NCBI GenBank assembly: GCA_000403475.2
Contig: KE159795.1
Span: 1,373,965-1,437,964, forward strand
Direction: 5' to 3'
Source: Lachnospiraceae bacterium MD308
GTDB taxonomy: Bacteria; Bacillota; Clostridia; Lachnospirales; Lachnospiraceae
DNA length: 64,000 nt
In this document: positions 40,485 through 48,938 of the stretch, one piece after another
Numbering within the stretch: position 1 is the stretch's first letter
How the letters are laid out: the number at the start of each line of letters is the position of its first letter
Translations under genes and position numbers: made by a program
The notes under the pieces: model-generated
The model's input: the letters and a program-made list of their open reading frames with translations, nothing else
Databases searched by the model: none
What the model was told of the DNA's origin: nothing

Positions 40485-42212
40485 ATGAATCTTCACATAA
40501 CAAAATCTAAAAATGCAGAGTCTTTTTATATCTGCAAATCTTATGTAAAAGCAAATGGTAGCACTACTTCTACAATTGTACGTAAGCTGGGAACTTTAGA
40601 ACAGCTTCTTCCTGAACATGGCCCTACAAGAGATGATGTCGTTGCATGGGCAAGAAATGAAGCAAAAATAGAGACCGAAAAATACAAAAAGGAAAATGAA
40701 GCAAAAACAGTATTGATTCCTTTCCGCGCTGACAGGCAATTAGATTATGGTAAACAGGCCTTCTTCCGCGGCGGCTATCTTTTTCTCCAATCCGTTTATT
40801 ATCAGCTGCAAATGAATAAGATCTGCCGGAAGTTAAAACAAAAATATAAATTCAAGTATGATATCAACGCAATTCTGTCTGACTTGATCTATACAAGGAT
40901 TCTGGAGCCTTGCAGCAAGCGTTCTTCTTACAAGGCAGCATCCGAGTTTTTAGAGAAACCTTCTTACGAACTCCATGATGTGTACCGGGCATTAGATGTC
41001 CTTGGGGCTGAATGCGACCTCATCCAAGCAGAAGTCTATAAAAACAGCCATTATCTTGGAAAGAGAAATGACAAGATCCTTTATTATGACTGCTCGAATT
41101 ATTACTTCGAAATTGAACAGGAAGATGGAGCTAAAAAATACGGAAAAAGTAAAGAACACAGGCCAAACCCGATCATTCAAATGGGGCTGTTTATGGACGG
41201 GGATGGAATCCCCCTTGCTTTCTCACTCTTTCCGGGAAATGCAAATGAGCAGACATCCCTGAAGCCATTAGAAAAGAAAGTCCTTGGGGATTTCGGATGC
41301 CAGAAATTCATTTATTGCAGTGATGCCGGACTGGGTTCTGAATCCATCAGGGAATACAATCACATGGGGGAACGAGCTTACATTGTAACTCAGTCCATCA
41401 AAAAGCTAAAGAAAGAAGAAAAAGAATGGGCGTTAAATCCGCAGGGCTTTAAAAGAGTATCTGATGATACTCCTGTCGATATCACAAAGCTTTCTGAGGA
41501 TGACAAAGGGCTTTATTACAAAGACGAACCCTATACCACAAAGAAGCTGCATCAGCGCTTGATCATCACGTATTCCCCTAAATATGCCCTTTACCAGAAG
41601 TCTCTCCGTGACAAACAGGTAGAGCGGGCACAGAAGATGCTCGACTCAGGGAAATCCAAAAAGAACCGAAAAAATCCCAATGACCCGGCCCGGTTTATTG
41701 GAAAAATAGCAGTTACAGAAGAAGGGGAAGCTGCTGATATCCAACATTATCTGGATGAAAAGAAGATTTCTGACGAGGCTCAGTACGACGGGCTCTATGC
41801 AGTATGCACAGACCTTTTGGATGATGAGGTCAGTGATATCCTGAAAGTAAGTGAGGGCAGATGGCAGATAGAGGAATGCTTCCGGATCATGAAAACAGAT
41901 TTTTCTGCAAGGCCTGTTTATTTACAGGATGAAAACCGGATCAAAGCACATTTCCTGATTTGTTTTCTCGCATTAACACTCTACCGTTTTCTTGAGAAAA
42001 AACTGGATGATAAGTATACCTGCGGAGAATTATTAGATACGCTAAAAGCAATGAATTTCGCCGAAATACAGGAGCAGGGATTTATCCCACTATACAGGCG
42101 GGAGCATATCACGGATGCTCTCCATGAAGCCTGTGGTTTCCGAACGGATTATCAATTCATAACCAAAAGCAGCATGAGAACCATTCAGAAAAAAAGTAAA
42201 GGGAAAGAATAA
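40485..42212 (+). CDS. IS1634-family transposase
   Basis: 575 aa. Matches the pattern of IS1634-like transposases: N-terminal MNLHITKSKNAESFYICKSY, central YYDCSNYYFEIEQEDGAKKY, IQMGLFMDGDGIPLAFSLFP, catalytic-region segments DAGLGSESIREYN, and C-terminal EGRWQIEECFRIMKTDFSAR and HFLICFLALTLYRFLEKKLD. Full-length, no internal stop. It likely is active or recently active. Left of it is a truncated Rpn gene; the terminal inverted repeats could not be identified. Confidence 0.9.
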   Translation: MNLHITKSKNAESFYICKSYVKANGSTTSTIVRKLGTLEQLLPEHGPTRDDVVAWARNEAKIETEKYKKENEAKTVLIPFRADRQLDYGKQAFFRGGYLFLQSVYYQLQMNKICRKLKQKYKFKYDINAILSDLIYTRILEPCSKRSSYKAASEFLEKPSYELHDVYRALDVLGAECDLIQAEVYKNSHYLGKRNDKILYYDCSNYYFEIEQEDGAKKYGKSKEHRPNPIIQMGLFMDGDGIPLAFSLFPGNANEQTSLKPLEKKVLGDFGCQKFIYCSDAGLGSESIREYNHMGERAYIVTQSIKKLKKEEKEWALNPQGFKRVSDDTPVDITKLSEDDKGLYYKDEPYTTKKLHQRLIITYSPKYALYQKSLRDKQVERAQKMLDSGKSKKNRKNPNDPARFIGKIAVTEEGEAADIQHYLDEKKISDEAQYDGLYAVCTDLLDDEVSDILKVSEGRWQIEECFRIMKTDFSARPVYLQDENRIKAHFLICFLALTLYRFLEKKLDDKYTCGELLDTLKAMNFAEIQEQGFIPLYRREHITDALHEACGFRTDYQFITKSSMRTIQKKSKGKE

Positions 42213-42344: not shown

Positions 42345-43574
42345 CTATGCGCCTTGCCGTTTCGGCTGCGTGTCAGAAAGGAAATTGAGTTCACCCACAA
42401 AATTGAAAACAATATCTACTTTCTGTACCCGTTTCCCGTTCACCTTTTCCGGCGCATGGACTATGATTTTTTTGATAAATTCATTGACGATTGCGGGGGT
42501 GAGTTCCTTTATCCCCACATACTTGCGGATAATCGCGGCGAAGCTGTCAAAATCGCTCTTATTCTGTTCGTAAGTATCGACTTCCTGCTGGTCTGCCTTA
42601 ACTTTTTCTTCCAGTTCCCGCTGTTCCGTTTCATACTCTGCGGACAGCTTCAAAAATCTGTCATGGCTGATTGCACCGCTTATGTCGTCCTCATAAATCC
42701 GCTTGAAGATACGGTCAAGTTCCGCTATCCGCTTCCTCGCCTGTCCGACTTCCGGCTTCCTGCGCTTCATTTCCTTTTCCGTTTCGGCAGAGCGTTGTGC
42801 ATACATCATTTCATGGAAAGCCATGATGTCATCAAAGAAAAGAGCGGTCACGTCAAATATCCTGCTCCATACGATTTGCTTCAACACTTCCTCGCGGATA
42901 AAGTGAGCCGTACAGCTTCCCGTATTGCTCTTGTACTTTGCACAGCGGTAATGGTCTTGTGAACCGTTAAAACTTTTACAAGTAGCGAAATGCAGCTTAC
43001 TCCCACAGTCCGCACAATATACCAAGCCGGAAAACAATCCCTGTCTGTCCGCTTTTGTGGGGCGGCGTTTGTTCGCCCTTAGTTCCTGCACCCGTTCAAA
43101 AACAGCGTCCTCTACAATCGCTTCATGGGTATTAAAAAAAATAGCCTGCTGTTCCTTTGTGGTTGGAATCCGCTTCTTCAATTTATGGGATTTGGAATAG
43201 CTTTTGAAATTTACGGTATGTCCGCAATAGTCCATACGTTCCAAAATGCCGACAATCGTGCTGTCTTTCCAGTTGTACGGATTTTCGGGAAGTGCTTTCC
43301 CCTTTTTCTTTGCGTAGTGGGCTTTGGCAGTCAGTACCTTATCTTCTTTGAGGATTTTTGCTATCTGCATGGGACCTTTCCCACCGATACATAAATCAAA
43401 AACCCGTTTCACCACAGCGGCGGCTTCCTCGTCTACAATCCATTGCTTTTTGTCCGCAGAGCTTACCATGTAGCCATAGGGCGGCTTTGTCAGATGTTCC
43501 CCCGCCTGTCCTTGCGCCCGCTTGATTGCCCGTACCTTTTTGCTTGTGTCTTTGGCGTAAAAATCATTGAACAC
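42345..43574 (-). pseudogene. Serine recombinase lacking its N-terminal catalytic domain
   Basis: 409 aa of the C-terminal part of a large serine recombinase: EHLTKPPYGYMVSSADKKQW, the recombinase domain, a zinc-ribbon (CADCGSKLHF...CAKYKSNTGSCTAHF) and a coiled-coil helix near the end. The resolvase-type catalytic domain (about 130-150 residues with the Ser nucleophile) is absent: in-frame codons upstream of 43574 run into TAA at 43578-43580. It is therefore a broken integrase, probably inactive. Confidence 0.88.
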
Positions 43575-43762: not shown

Positions 43763-43804
43763 TTGAACACGCAAATCATCGCCATCGCCAACCAAAAGGG
43801 AGGT
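43763..43804 (+). pseudogene. parA: parA, left fragment (start to Walker A)
   Basis: TTG start followed by MNTQIIAIANQKGG(V)G, the beginning of a ParA ATPase up to its deviant Walker A box. The frame then enters the inserted element and stops at 43838-43840. The matching continuation is at 47267. A gene of about 260-270 aa has been split. Confidence 0.9.
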
Positions 43805-43940
43805 GTGGGTTATGAAAAGCTATACATTATGCAAAGTTAATGATAGAAATCCTTATAAATAAAGGATTCTTTAGTTGATTTACTTTCCATAATCTATCAC
43901 GATTTAAGTGTATTTTATCAAATCACTTAAGGAGGAACAC

Positions 43941-45155
43941 ATGATGGAAAAATCAACTTTGCAGCAACTGATCAACCAAACCGGGGAAGCACTCGTACAG
44001 GCAGGTGCATCCAGCTATTACCAAAAAGTATTTAAAACTCTTACAAAACAGCTTTTGCTCTACTCCCACGAACAAGGTACTGATTCTTTCAGCATGGATT
44101 TTGGATTACAGTTTTTAGAAGACCATTATTCTATGTCATCTAAGATAGCGTTGAAAAAATGGTGTACAGCCTATTCCCGTTGTATAAATGCTTTGGCAGA
44201 ATACCAGCGTTCAGGGAATGTAGTTCTTTATCTTGCCATGGATAAAAGAGCATACACTTTCCCAGAGGGATTTAGATATAGCGCAGAAGCATATATTTCC
44301 CATCGAGAAGATATCGGGATAATAAAAAAATCAAATAAGATTTTCAGTTTATATTTGGAGCGCTTTTTTGCGTTTTTAAGCAGGAAGAACATTACTTCTT
44401 TAGATACACTGTCTCTCAAAGACGTTTTGGATTTCATGGCATCTTTGAACTGTTATGAAAAGCCAACCATAAATCATACAATGCGTGCGGTGCGCTATTA
44501 TCTGAAATACTGCTATGAACATGGTCTTATGGAGCAGGAGATGTTTTCAAAACTTCCAAACCCTCATTACAACAGGCAGAGCCGATTACCTTCTTCGTAT
44601 TCTGCGAATGAGGTGACAAAACTTCTTGACTCGATTGACCTTGGGAATCCCTGTGGAATCCGTGATTATGCAATCATTCTTCTGATTGCAAGACTTGGAT
44701 TACGCAGTAGTGATGTCGCAAATTTAAGGTTTTCCAATATCGACTGGGAAAGAGAAGTAATCCATTTGAACCAGGTAAAAACAGGAAATCCGTTAGAACT
44801 TCCTCTTTTAGAAGATGTTGGCGAAGCGATCATTAACTATCTGAAGAACGCAAGGCCTAAAACCGGCTCGGATCACGTTTTTGTGAGACAGGTTCCTCCT
44901 TATACGGATTTCAATCCGGGTGCGGTCGGCGCCCTTGTAAGGGTACGTCTCCAGAGATCGGGAATCCATCTTGAAGGGAAAAAGAAAGGCTCCCACACAC
45001 TCCGCCACAGCCTTGCGAGCCGCCTGTTGGAGCATGAGATTCCGCTTCCGGTCATTTCAGAAATCCTGGGGCACACAACTACTGAAACTACGATGGCATA
45101 TCTTCGTATTGATATCACCGAGCTTCGGAAATGTGCATTGGAGGTGGCAATCTAA
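43941..45155 (+). CDS. Tyrosine recombinase 1 of the trio
   Basis: 404 aa. The catalytic domain has LIARLGLRSSDVANLRF (first Arg), KGSHTLRHSLASRLLEHEIP (His-x-x-Arg), and the end HTTTETTMAYLRI with the Tyr. The N-terminal half is long, a feature of RIT recombinases. ATG 43941 follows AAGGAGGAAC; an upstream in-frame start at 43908 has no such site. It is followed by TAATG overlap with the second recombinase. Confidence 0.9.
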   Translation: MMEKSTLQQLINQTGEALVQAGASSYYQKVFKTLTKQLLLYSHEQGTDSFSMDFGLQFLEDHYSMSSKIALKKWCTAYSRCINALAEYQRSGNVVLYLAMDKRAYTFPEGFRYSAEAYISHREDIGIIKKSNKIFSLYLERFFAFLSRKNITSLDTLSLKDVLDFMASLNCYEKPTINHTMRAVRYYLKYCYEHGLMEQEMFSKLPNPHYNRQSRLPSSYSANEVTKLLDSIDLGNPCGIRDYAIILLIARLGLRSSDVANLRFSNIDWEREVIHLNQVKTGNPLELPLLEDVGEAIINYLKNARPKTGSDHVFVRQVPPYTDFNPGAVGALVRVRLQRSGIHLEGKKKGSHTLRHSLASRLLEHEIPLPVISEILGHTTTETTMAYLRIDITELRKCALEVAI

Positions 45156-46141
45156 TGACAAGAATCAGAAAATCTCCATCCATGACAGGTTCATTTGCGG
45201 AAGTTGCCCAGGAATTCATTCAGTACAAAAGAAGCACAGGTTTTAAATATGCAGATGAACCGAAATGTTTATCCCGGTTTTGTCGTTTCAGTGAAGAACA
45301 GAGTGTCACAGAAATAAAAATATCACGCTCCCTTGCAGAAAAATGGACAGCGCCCCGGGCAGGTGAATCCGAAAAAAGTCGGTCACACCGCATTACCTGC
45401 ATAAGACAGTTTGCCATATACCTTAATACCCTTGGTTATGACGCTTATATCGTGCCGGAAGTGAAGGGTTTGAATCACAGTTCATTTGTACCATATATAT
45501 TTACACATGAGCAGATAGCAGCTGTAATCAAAGCCGCTGATGAAACAGAACCCAAAGAAGTTGCAAGAAATATGCATCTGGCGTTACCAGTGATCTTCAG
45601 GATTCTTTATGGCTGTGGACTTCGTGTGTCAGAAGTTGTCGGACTTCGCTGCGGGGATGTAAATCTCGAAGATGGGATTCTTACGATCCGTGAAGCAAAG
45701 ACTGACCGTGACCGGTATATCCCATTATCAGATTCCGTAAAAGAAGCCTGTATATCCTATGCAGATAAAATCTGGTGGGAAAAAGACTGTGACTTTTTCT
45801 TCCCTGCTCCTGATAAGACCATGATCAGTCCGATGACTATCTATCAAAGGTACCGCAGGTATCTGGAAGCGGCAGGGATTTCACATGGAGGAAAAGGGCA
45901 GGGCCCCCGTCTGCATGATGTACGCCATACATTTGCGGTTCATGTTTTACAAAAGTGGATCAGGGAAGAAGCCGATTTAACGGCTATGCTCCCGATTCTT
46001 TCCACATATATGGGGCACAAAACAATACGCTCAACAGCAAGGTATCTGCGCCTGACAGCGGAAGTTTATCCAGACCTGATGAGGGAAGTGGAAAGGTCAT
46101 GTGCATACGTCATCCCGGAGGTATGCCATGAAGGAAACTGA
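45155..46141 (+). CDS. Tyrosine recombinase 2 of the trio
   Basis: 328 aa. Catalytic motifs: YGCGLRVSEVVGLRCGDVNL (Arg), LHDVRHTFAVHVLQ (His-x-x-Arg) and HKTIRSTARYLRLTAEVYP with Tyr. The start ATG at 45155 overlaps the previous stop, so translation is coupled. The sequence differs clearly from recombinases 1 and 3, as expected of the RIT trio. Confidence 0.9.
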   Translation: MTRIRKSPSMTGSFAEVAQEFIQYKRSTGFKYADEPKCLSRFCRFSEEQSVTEIKISRSLAEKWTAPRAGESEKSRSHRITCIRQFAIYLNTLGYDAYIVPEVKGLNHSSFVPYIFTHEQIAAVIKAADETEPKEVARNMHLALPVIFRILYGCGLRVSEVVGLRCGDVNLEDGILTIREAKTDRDRYIPLSDSVKEACISYADKIWWEKDCDFFFPAPDKTMISPMTIYQRYRRYLEAAGISHGGKGQGPRLHDVRHTFAVHVLQKWIREEADLTAMLPILSTYMGHKTIRSTARYLRLTAEVYPDLMREVERSCAYVIPEVCHEGN

Positions 46142-47141
46142 TTTTGCACAGTATTTAACGCAGTTCCTGTCAGTATATCTTCCCTGCCAGGTCGGCAGCA
46201 AACGTAATACCCAGTTAGCATACAGGGACTCATTCTCATTATTTTTAAGATACTGCAGAGATCAGGAGAACCTTTTGCCGGAAAAGCTGACAGTTGCAAA
46301 AATAAACAGGGATCTGATCCTCCGCTTTCTGCAATGGCTGGAAGAAGAACGTAACTGCAAAGCGGCGACAAGGAATCAACGTCTCGCTGCAATCCATTCA
46401 TTTTTCAGCTTTTTAATGGTAGAAGAACCACAGTATATACAGCAAAGCCAGAAAATCCTGGCTATTCCAATGAAAAAAACGGATACGGTGCCACTCATGT
46501 ATCTTCCATTGGATAGCATCAAGGGCCTGTTAGAACAACCCGACAGGACAACGATCCAGGGGAAAAGAGATGCTGTTCTGCTGTCACTTTTATATGATAC
46601 CGGAGCAAGGGTTCAGGAACTTGTGGATCTAAAAGTTTGTGATGTTGCTTTAAATGATACTGTCACCATCGTACTGACAGGCAAAGGCGGTAAAAGCCGC
46701 ATTGTTCCAGTCATGAGACCAACTGGGGAATTGTTGAAGCAGTATATGGAAGGTTCTGGTCTGGCTTCGCCTGTATATGGTCGCAATCCGTTATTTACCA
46801 ACCGGAGCAATAAACCCCTGACGAGAGCCGGAGTGACATATATTTTGAAAAAATATGCTGCACAGGCTCAAGCAATGGGAATAAAGGATATATCCGATGA
46901 AATCACACCGCATTGGCTGAGGCATAGCAAAGCAATGCATCTGCTTCAGTCCGGAGTCAATCTTGTTTATATCAGAGATCTACTGGGACATTCTGATATT
47001 TCAACAACCGAAATCTACGCACGGGCAGACGAAAAAATGAAGCGAAAAGCATTGACGGAAGCTTACAACAGTCCATCATCTGACGAACTGCCAGCGTGGA
47101 AAAAGGATAAAGACCTTCTTGATTGGTTGAAATCTTTATAA
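46128..47141 (+). CDS. Tyrosine recombinase 3 of the trio
   Basis: 337 aa. N-terminal core-binding region (RDSFSLFLRYCRDQENLLPE) and catalytic residues: YDTGARVQELVDLKVCDVAL, HWLRHSKAMHLLQSGVN and HSDISTTEIYARADEK (Tyr at IYAR). It starts within the end of recombinase 2 (14-nt overlap). Closest of the three to XerC/D-type recombinases. Confidence 0.9.
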   Translation: MKETDFAQYLTQFLSVYLPCQVGSKRNTQLAYRDSFSLFLRYCRDQENLLPEKLTVAKINRDLILRFLQWLEEERNCKAATRNQRLAAIHSFFSFLMVEEPQYIQQSQKILAIPMKKTDTVPLMYLPLDSIKGLLEQPDRTTIQGKRDAVLLSLLYDTGARVQELVDLKVCDVALNDTVTIVLTGKGGKSRIVPVMRPTGELLKQYMEGSGLASPVYGRNPLFTNRSNKPLTRAGVTYILKKYAAQAQAMGIKDISDEITPHWLRHSKAMHLLQSGVNLVYIRDLLGHSDISTTEIYARADEKMKRKALTEAYNSPSSDELPAWKKDKDLLDWLKSL

Positions 47142-47266
47142 GGGTTTACTCCTGATTATGCAAAGTTCAAAAGAGCCTATACCCTATAAAATCAGCAAAA
47201 GTGTAGGCTCAACTTTGCATAATAACTTACTTTTCATAACCGACTTTATGTGAAGCTTCACATAAG
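47142..47266. repeat. Right end of the RIT-like element
   Basis: TTATGCAAAGTT (47158) is followed by GAGCCTA and, in inverted order, TAGGCTC and AACTTTGCATAA (to 47222), forming a hairpin that overlaps the right terminal repeat. Beyond it lies a perfect 20-bp palindrome at 47246-47265 with an AAGCTT centre, which has no partner at the left end. Confidence 0.75.
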
Positions 47267-48046
47267 ACGGGCAAGACCACAACCTGTGCCAACTTAGGGA
47301 TAGGACTGGCGCAGGCCGGAAAGAAAGTGCTTCTCATTGACGGGGACCCGCAAGGGAGCCTGACCATCAGCCTGGGCAATCCCCAGCCGGATAAGCTGCC
47401 CTTTACCCTCTCTGACGCAATGGGCCGTATCCTGACCGATCAGCCGGTCCGCCCCGGCGAGGGGATTCTGCGCCACCCGGAGGGCGTGGACCTGATGCCG
47501 GCGGATATTCAGCTGTCCGGCATGGAGGTGTCGCTGGTAAACGCTATGAGCCGGGAAACGATTCTGCGGCAATACATGGATACCGTAAAGGGGCAATATT
47601 CCCATATCCTCATAGACTGCCAGCCCTCCCTGGGTATGCTCACCGTCAACGCGCTGGCCGCTGCCAACCGGATCATAATCCCCGTCCAGGCGGAGTATCT
47701 GCCCGCCAAAGGGCTGGAACAGCTGCTCTCTACGGTAGCCAAGGTCAAGCGGCAGATCAACCCGAAACTGCAAATAGACGGTATTCTGCTGACGATGGTG
47801 GACAACCGCACCAACTTTGCCAAAGAGATTGCCGCCCTGCTGCGGGAAACCTACGGCAGCAAAATCAAGGTATTCGGCACAGAGATTCCCCATTCTGTCC
47901 GGGCAAAGGAAACCAGCGCGGAGGGCAGGAGCATTTTCGCCCATGACCCAGGGGGCAAAGTAGCGGAAGGCTACGCAAATCTGACCAAGGAGGTGTTGAA
48001 ACTTGAAAAGCAGCGCGAAAAAAGTAGAGCTGGCATCGGTCGATGA
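47267..48046 (+). pseudogene. parA: parA, right fragment (from P-loop lysine)
   Basis: About 259 codons continuing TGKTTTCANLGIGLAQAGKK, VLLIDGDPQGSLTISLG, DCQPSLGMLTVNALAAANRI and ending EKSRAGIGR. Together with the left fragment it makes a full ParA/Soj ATPase. The first GTG in frame is at 47327, after the P-loop, so a translated product would lack ATP binding. It overlaps parB by 44 nt. Confidence 0.9.
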
Positions 48047-48938
48047 TCTGTTTACCACCGAGGAAAGCCGCGCCGACGCGGGGCGGGAAAAGGTGGTAGA
48101 AATCCCTTTAAGCGAGCTGCACTCGTTCAAGGGCCACCCTTTCAAGGTCAAAGATGATGATGCCATGATGGAAACAGCGGACAGCATCCGGCAGTACGGC
48201 GTTCTTGTTCCTGCTATCGCCCGTCCTGACCCGGAGGGCGGCTATGAGCTGGTAGCCGGACACAGGCGGCATCGGGCCAGTGAACTGGCAGAGAAAGAAA
48301 CCATGCCGGTGATTGTCCGGGATTTGGACGATGACGCCGCCACGATTATCATGGTTGACAGCAATTTACAACGGGAAAGCCTGCTCCCCAGCGAAAGGGC
48401 TTTTGCCTACAAAATGAAGCTGGAGGCCATGAAACATCAGGGAGAACGCATGGATTTAACTTCCGCCCAAGTTGGGCGGAAGTCCGCTGGTAAGGAATCC
48501 AGAGAAATTTTAGCGGAACAGGTTGGGCAAAGCCGCAATCAGATTTCGCGCTACATTCGCCTGACCGAGTTAATCCCCGAACTGCTGAACATGGTGGACG
48601 AAAAGAAAATTGCCCTGAACCCGGCCTATGAGCTGTCCTTTCTCAAAAAAGAAGAACAGACACAGCTTTTGGACGCGATGGACAGCGAACAGGCCACCCC
48701 CTCCCTTTCCCAAGCCCAGCGGCTCAAAAAATTCAGTCAGGAGGGGCATCTGTCCATAGATGTAATGCGGGCGATTATGGGCGAGGAAAAGAAAAGCGAT
48801 CTGGACAAGGTGACGTTTACCTCCGACACCCTGCGGAAGTATTTTCCCAAAAGCTATACCCCTGCCCGGATGCAGGAAACCATCATCAAACTGCTGGAAC
48901 AGTGGCAGAAAAAGCGTCAGAGAGATCAGGAACGCTGA
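48003..48938 (+). CDS. parB: ParB/Spo0J-like partition protein
   Basis: 311 aa. The nuclease-like ParB N-domain is clear: IPLSELHSFKGHPFKVKDDD, YGVLVPAIARPDPEGGYELV, AGHRRHRASELAE. A helix-turn-helix follows (VGQSRNQISRYIRLTELIPE). DNA segregation or regulation of the element. TTG start with AAGGAGG 9 nt upstream; it overlaps the parA end. With parA interrupted, it probably functions poorly or alone. Confidence 0.88.
   Translation: MKSSAKKVELASVDDLFTTEESRADAGREKVVEIPLSELHSFKGHPFKVKDDDAMMETADSIRQYGVLVPAIARPDPEGGYELVAGHRRHRASELAEKETMPVIVRDLDDDAATIIMVDSNLQRESLLPSERAFAYKMKLEAMKHQGERMDLTSAQVGRKSAGKESREILAEQVGQSRNQISRYIRLTELIPELLNMVDEKKIALNPAYELSFLKKEEQTQLLDAMDSEQATPSLSQAQRLKKFSQEGHLSIDVMRAIMGEEKKSDLDKVTFTSDTLRKYFPKSYTPARMQETIIKLLEQWQKKRQRDQER

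Follow-up and report, generated by a model that had tools for sequence, protein, structure and literature searches.

In a 64,000-nt stretch of the genome of Lachnospiraceae bacterium MD308 (assembly GCA_000403475.2, contig KE159795.1, positions 1,373,965 to 1,437,964; the whole stretch is called the window below), the partition gene parA is interrupted by what we interpret as a recombinase-in-trio (RIT) element, and we put at roughly 85% the probability that this element is site-specific for the codons of the deviant Walker A motif of parA, KGGxGKT. The sequence shows three recombinase genes of RIT type, all open and all with catalytic motifs, and shows that the same 6-bp spacer has been entered repeatedly in many parA genes, in both orientations and with a palindrome that keeps to the parA 3' side.

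The split parA spans 43763-48046, with a TTG start at 43763, and the break lies within KGG(x)GK, as the original prediction had it: the insert separates KGGVG from GKT, the gene reading MNTQIIAIANQKGGVG, then the insert, then (T)GKTTTCANLGIG and onward up to 48046. The 5' part (43763-43803, plus strand) codes for MNTQIIAIANQKG plus two bases of the next Gly codon, at the start of the P-loop; the 3' part (47272-48046, plus strand; PF13614) has, by eye, no in-frame start directly upstream. Between them, the whole insert (43804-47271) consists of the element, a 6-bp spacer that separates it from the parA 5' part and, on the parA 3' side, a 20-bp palindrome set between two further 6-bp spacers. 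The KGG-side spacer is TGTGGG (43804-43809, plus strand) and is identical in an uninterrupted relative; the element itself extends from its left terminal arm TTATGAAAAG (43810-43819, plus strand) to its right outermost arm CTTTTCATAA (47230-47239), 3.43 kb from arm to arm (43810-47239). It is followed by the middle spacer CCGACT (47240-47245, plus strand), whose other strand reads AGTCGG, a P-loop-type hexamer; by the perfect palindrome TTATGTGAAGCTTCACATAA (47246-47265), whose halves, TTATGTGAAG, are similar to the left terminal arm; and by the GKT-side spacer GACGGG (47266-47271, plus strand). The terminal inverted repeats (43805-43838 and 47211-47244) are 34 nt long and match at 82%. Inside lie three consecutive tyrosine recombinase genes on the plus strand, ritA (43944-45155), ritB (45155-46141) and ritC (46128-47141), which overlap by 1 and 14 nt and each carry PF00589 (E 5e-34 to 3e-24). 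The predicted 3.4-kb unit of three overlapping recombinases with matching inverted repeats is thus present as described; the palindrome and the two additional 6-bp spacers on the parA 3' side had not been part of that description.

The empty site that the original prediction sought among relatives also exists. The relative G018 has the homologous parA without interruption (L165), and this gene agrees with the window flanks over 105 nt (98%) and over 774 nt (96.5%); the equivalents of 43803 and 47272 stand exactly 6 bp apart there, and the spacer between them is TGTGGG, the same as the KGG-side spacer of the window. The palindrome was considered as a part of the natural target and ruled out: uninterrupted parA genes lack it (25 P-loops in 28 loci, found with a pattern requiring an uninterrupted motif), and 395 of 397 family genomes do not have it even when one mismatch is allowed, the two that do both carrying the element.

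That the window element is a RIT element, as predicted, is supported by the same-position matches of its proteins to the C. necator pHG1 trio, by the double N-terminal domain of RitA, and by its size, inverted repeats and palindrome. Its recombinases fall in the RIT families, and neither of the two findings that the original prediction would have taken as refuting it, the lack of an empty site in relatives and a recombinase phylogeny unlike the RIT group, was obtained. RitA, RitB and RitC best match the pHG1 proteins of the same position (30, 40 and 48% identity), each has as its top match the same-position protein among the pHG1 or B. finegoldii trios, and RitC aligns with pHG1 C from end to end (1-337 to 1-336, 48%); pHG1 is itself named as RIT-rich in the available part of Van Houdt 2012 (PMC3414803). 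A motif scan found the catalytic motifs in all three proteins (G-L/A-R, H..RH, GH and the Tyr box). The excerpt of PMC8138268 gives two sequential core-binding domains as the hallmark of RitA and an additional C-terminal helix for RitC; the AlphaFold model of the window RitA has predicted four-helix units at residues 5-89 and 107-191 with the catalytic domain after them, at a mean predicted local distance difference test score of 68.7 (52-93 per ten-residue block over the N-terminal 190 residues). A fold search returned generic tyrosine recombinases with low whole-chain TM-scores. The 3.43 kb, 34-nt inverted repeat, 20-bp palindrome and six host places agree with the RIT features of about 3.5 kb, 28-34 bp repeats, an end palindrome and identical multiple copies. 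One end of the pHG1 copy is adjoined by a palindrome; a palindrome was looked for beside the ends of the B. finegoldii copy and none was found. In a RitA tree of 37 rows, 16 rows labelled parA fall on one branch (100/100), three of these (L070, L086, L088) being labelled without any flank seen; the rows L080 and L082 are collapsed contigs, with parA junctions elsewhere in their genomes.

The same trio with the same ends was found both in the host and in other genomes. The 4.46-Mb host genome carries the element at six places, which we sort into four kinds of site. The window is one, C1:245-249 kb (L002) another and C4:339 kb (L003) a third; the fourth is a parA locus that recurs nearly unchanged at either end of C1 and at the C3 end (L004-L006). 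The four regions aligned with the window element (L060-L063) reach identities of 100, 99.97, 100 and 99.97%. Every visible flank of the host copies is a ParA-like P-loop half, one flank at the C3 end being cut off. The L003 copy has a different parA 5' half on each side, and no 3' half belonging to it was recognised among the 12 host matches to PF13614, which comprise six pieces of interrupted genes and six uninterrupted genes. Judged by its sequence, the three-recombinase insert in parA is not a chance arrangement, because it recurs at these six places with P-loop flanks and in other genomes at the same codons. As side observations, the L004, L005 and L006 loci lie at mirror-image C1 ends and at the C3 end, perhaps through the copying of one integrative and conjugative element (ICE) or through an assembly effect, and the L002 insertion (L060, G000 C1:230000-249999) lies near RadC-, HerA- and dynamin-like genes.

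The original prediction had also suggested that landing in a P-loop is a way to target other mobile elements, and this reading fits what was seen around the window parA. The partner gene parB (48003-48938, plus strand; PF02195, PF17762) lies downstream of parA, and to its right are genes for a coupling protein and a MobQ-type relaxase, so that an integrated conjugative or mobilizable element is the most likely carrier of the window parA. The six uninterrupted host genes, which have a KGGxGK(S/T) or KGGVAKT motif and by eye include Soj-like, MinD-like and Mrp-like genes, have been spared; this sparing could, however, reflect survivorship.

For the survey of other genomes, the queries were a Rit protein, the element DNA or the palindrome, and never parA. 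RitA-like proteins (E up to 1e-30) were found in 46 of the 397 family genomes, and 25 loci were confirmed when genome contigs were scanned with an alignment of four RitA sequences; they are labelled as Lachnospiraceae, Clostridia or genera of that group, one only as "Bacterium". A plasmid DNA search with the element gave one weak match only, and plasmid and phage protein searches gave distant relatives only (below 60% identity among the matches listed), which leaves genome and viral contigs as the basis of the survey. The sharing of P-loop codons by other insertion sites, a check that the original prediction had proposed, came out clearly positive: 20 of 21 distinct KGG-side junctions are ParA N-termini (L004 and L005 being near-identical loci in this count), as are, in ParA-like form, 35 of 39 distinct junctions on the palindrome side. 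A more diverged copy outside the KGG-side count (L009) reads NQKGGVG by eye. The Lys codons on the KGG side are AAA or AAG and the Gly and Val codons vary, which suggests that wobble positions are tolerated.

These junctions also bear on whether a loosely targeted RIT spread mainly by hitch-hiking, with one parA insertion in an ICE being inherited and copied along with the ICE and the P-loop a historical accident. The parA type MCKIIAIANQKGGV is interrupted in five genomes; three contig ends of the host carry this locus in near-identical form, as such spread would produce. In all, however, 21 different ParA-like 16-residue 3' sequences are interrupted, with different spacers, and the targeting holds in both element orientations and down to about 64% RitA identity (a difference of up to 36%). 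As a full account, hitch-hiking is already refuted by the distinct parA genes and the opposite orientations, and we regard it as highly improbable. The clade to which the element belongs appears instead to be site-specific for ParA P-loop codons, and so to recognise a conserved coding motif of other mobile elements.

The junctions conform to a pattern of two arms separated by 6 bp. Of the 39 palindrome-side junctions, 22 have the palindrome against the left end of the element and 17 against the right end, and in no case (0/39) is a KGG half read on the far side of the palindrome. Counting the palindrome and its close variants, 98 of 99 occurrences (duplicates included, from the loci fetched by then) are flanked on one side, and not on the other, by an element arm at a distance of 6 bp; the remaining one is at a contig start. 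The spacer pattern N(GT|AC)N(GG|GC|AG), expected by chance at 2.3% each, is found in 39/39 target-side, 38/39 middle and 18/19 listed KGG-side spacers. The middle spacer, between element and palindrome, has no contact with parA and still fits the P-loop hexamer in those 38; we read it as a coupling sequence probably inherited from earlier P-loop targets.

On this basis we propose that the element would move as a circle whose ends are joined via two core sites, one made up of the right arm, 6 bp and a palindrome half, the other of a palindrome half, 6 bp and the left arm. Either circle core would be recombined by the recombinases with a target core, (AARGGNGG)-6 bp-(NAARAC); since the element ends are alike and the palindrome is symmetric, either core should be usable, which would give both orientations and always leave the palindrome between the element and the GKT half. 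A match of the 6-bp overlaps would not be required. The target's own spacer would mostly be kept on the KGG side and the element-borne spacers would lie opposite, as in the strand-biased circularizing integrative elements (SEs) and Tn554.

The same anatomy would follow from conservative cut-and-paste with spacers resolved at random after a heteroduplex, as in Tn916, instead of in the strand-biased manner of SEs, and the polarity of the spacers is read from few genes. The parA type MCKIIAIANQKGGV has the KGG-side spacer AGTCGG in the host, L024/L073, L078 and L087 and TGTGGG in L092; uninterrupted genes of this type (L187, L193) have AGTCGG as their natural spacer. The 3' half of the type (KTTTTSNLGIGLAKQG) is seen at five loci with five different spacers, one of them AGTCGG. 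The natural spacer is thus on the KGG side in 4/5 genomes, against 1/5 on the other side, and in the window it is again the KGG-side spacer that equals the relative's, whereas the other side differs. The non-natural KGG-side spacer of L092 would suit random resolution, which we hold to be possible but doubtful; across these few genes it seems mostly to be the KGG side that keeps the target spacer, with the element-borne spacers on the other, a polarity that resembles the rule of the SEs.

Several observations weigh against site-specificity for the P-loop or against the scheme proposed for it. The 21st KGG-side junction (L094, with a diverged arm) is not ParA, and four of the 39 palindrome-side junctions are not recognisable as ParA (L084, L122, L126, L133). 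At L084 the contig ends at once, leaving a 3' side too short to tell, and the 5' half is ParA; L122, L126 and L133 are not ParA, yet each starts with VGK, the end assignment of L122 hanging on one base. The spacers of L071 (KGG side, TGTGTC) and L122 (middle, TGCAGG) are off pattern, and the KGG-side spacer of L092 is the non-natural one given above. Among 23 loci examined for both ends, 12 are two-ended: in nine, a 5' half adjoins one end and the palindrome with a 3' half adjoins the other; in three (L062, L071, L092), both ends adjoin parA 5' halves and the palindrome is lacking, an arrangement that could reflect a two-copy deletion, a site-specific inversion or a misassembly; 3' halves at both ends were seen in none of the 12. 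Three genomes with close elements have no palindrome within one mismatch (G304, G325, G345), that of G304 being a two-mismatch variant and the other two having cut or collapsed contigs; G441 (L129) has a two-mismatch palindrome without an element; and a search for the circle junction in viral contigs gave 0 matches. Beside the L122 junction lies, by eye, a group II intron-like reverse transcriptase frame.

Insertion would break ParA, and recombining the outer junctions is expected to leave a KGGxGKT-type P-loop. Developmentally excised intervening elements are the model for another account, in which the element is a regulated, reversible switch that turns parA off and restores it by precise excision, to the benefit of the host or the ICE. 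That nearly all spacers fit P-loop codons, so that exchange at the outer junctions should restore a readable P-loop, speaks for such a switch. On the other hand, the element occurs in many different parA genes, truncated copies in parA (L085, L091, L093) suggest a parasite, the only element genes found are the three recombinases, and other RIT lineages interrupt transposase genes. We judge a switch to be very improbable.

RIT lineages with other targets often have this layout as well, but strike other conserved motifs, many of them in transposases, recombinases and phage genes. The exact palindrome occurs in 16 viral contigs, with an element arm 6 bp away in all 16; two of the targets are parA, five a DUF4314-like gene (motif by eye) and nine a portal-like gene, near its end, the names portal-like and protease-like in these contigs being ones we assume. 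The full trio was read in L098, L109 and L108. As an observation in its own right, L096, L097, L098, L104 and L109 form a RIT lineage with the same palindrome in the DUF4314-like gene, with spacers NGGNAC, and L099, L101, L102, L105-L108, L110 and L111 a third lineage, again with the same palindrome, near the 3' end of the portal-like gene before the protease-like gene. Among 20 further RitA-like loci of the family, the ends could be placed in 14 (six remained unplaced: L208 and L214-L218, of which L215 and L217 may not be trios), and a palindrome (arm at least 11) stands beside an end in nine of the 14. A Pfam domain is interrupted from both sides in four, a tyrosine recombinase in L202 (profile 133|137) and rve transposases in L209, L213 and L220; one-sided Pfam support was obtained for L203 (reverse transcriptase), L211 (IS66 Orf2), L212 (weak rve) and L205 (HATPase_c_4, not evidently a mobile gene), and a motif was seen by eye only in L204, L206, L207 and L210. 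In seven of these trios (L213, L220, L209, L202, L204, L206, L212), the place of insertion is a conserved motif of a transposase, a recombinase or a PDDEXK-like protein; in this small sample, we take the junctions in transposase and recombinase families to fall at catalytic motifs. Two candidate motif insertions were left uncounted: L221, which has a relaxase nearby and an unlike other side, and L219, whose junction lies beyond the DUF4314 domain.

The odds seem to us even that RITs in general are parasites of mobile elements, with each lineage specialised on the signature-motif codons of one protein and all sharing one circle scheme. The lineage targets would be the P-loop of ParA, the second Asp of DDE transposases, HxxR or the Tyr of tyrosine recombinases, ExQ of PDDEXK-like proteins, and phage DUF4314-like and portal-like genes; the shared scheme would comprise a palindrome between two core sites, target arms that tolerate wobble, and spacers passed on from one target to the next, and removal would thereby leave a readable motif. 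The window element is likely a case of such a broader motif-targeting principle.

Elsewhere in the window, a large serine recombinase frame without an N-terminal resolvase domain (42345-43574, minus strand) lies just upstream of parA and is adjoined by an IS1634-family transposase (40485-42212, plus strand). Positions 11312-31781 hold a proline reductase/selenium cluster (PutP-like symporter, PrdA, PrdC, a proline racemase-like protein, SelB, SelA and SelD), the SelD frame missing the first 58 profile positions. No resistance genes were seen among the window proteins scanned, no screen of the whole window having been made.

These results connect a single RIT lineage with a defined motif in coding DNA through dozens of natural insertions and a spacer rule; the so far unexplained RIT palindrome is given a place, and the P-loop target rule makes transposition directly testable with a short target. 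If the wider pattern is true, plasmids, ICEs, phages and transposons would have natural antagonists or passengers in the RITs, which would break the very motif that these carriers cannot change.

Inteins, homing elements and group II introns likewise colonise the codons of highly conserved motifs, which ensures them many targets. They do so with different enzymes, and there is no sign of a removal of the RIT at the RNA or protein level, for which no test was made. In the available text of PMC3414803, RITs are described as ritA-ritB-ritC units in identical multiple copies, with a palindrome and inverted repeats noted without a role; that of the C. metallidurans CH34 genome paper (PMC2864759) reports that RITs have inactivated an IS66 gene and, in two species, radC; and a 2023 comparison (PMC10214605) states, in the portion available, that RIT target specificity was not formally tested. 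No report of ParA P-loop or motif targeting by RITs was found in the literature searched, which did not cover Ricker 2013, and within it the P-loop specificity, the spacer rule and the palindrome placement appear new. According to the same portion of PMC10214605, GInts and Tn554 resemble the window element in having several cooperating recombinase genes and a site preference, and Tn554-related elements also have a 6-bp footprint; they differ in having GinA-D, or TnpA-C with TnpC, instead of three RIT-type recombinases, the third gene here being a tyrosine recombinase with catalytic motifs and not a TnpC-like partner. SEs, as portrayed there, are target-specific as well and have the target's 6 bp at one border and element-borne 6 bp at the other; they are set apart by gene content (IntA, Tfp, IntB and Srap, against three genes here that all carry PF00589), by their median of 15.7 kb and by their occurrence in Gammaproteobacteria. 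With known RITs, as far as the sources above describe them, the window element shares three adjacent overlapping genes, a length near 3.5 kb, a palindrome next to the inverted repeats, multiple identical copies and insertion inside genes (radC, an IS66 gene and a Tn6049 gene among the known cases); it stands apart from them in the repeated use of the ParA P-loop by one RitA clade, in its spacer rule and in the fixed side of its palindrome.

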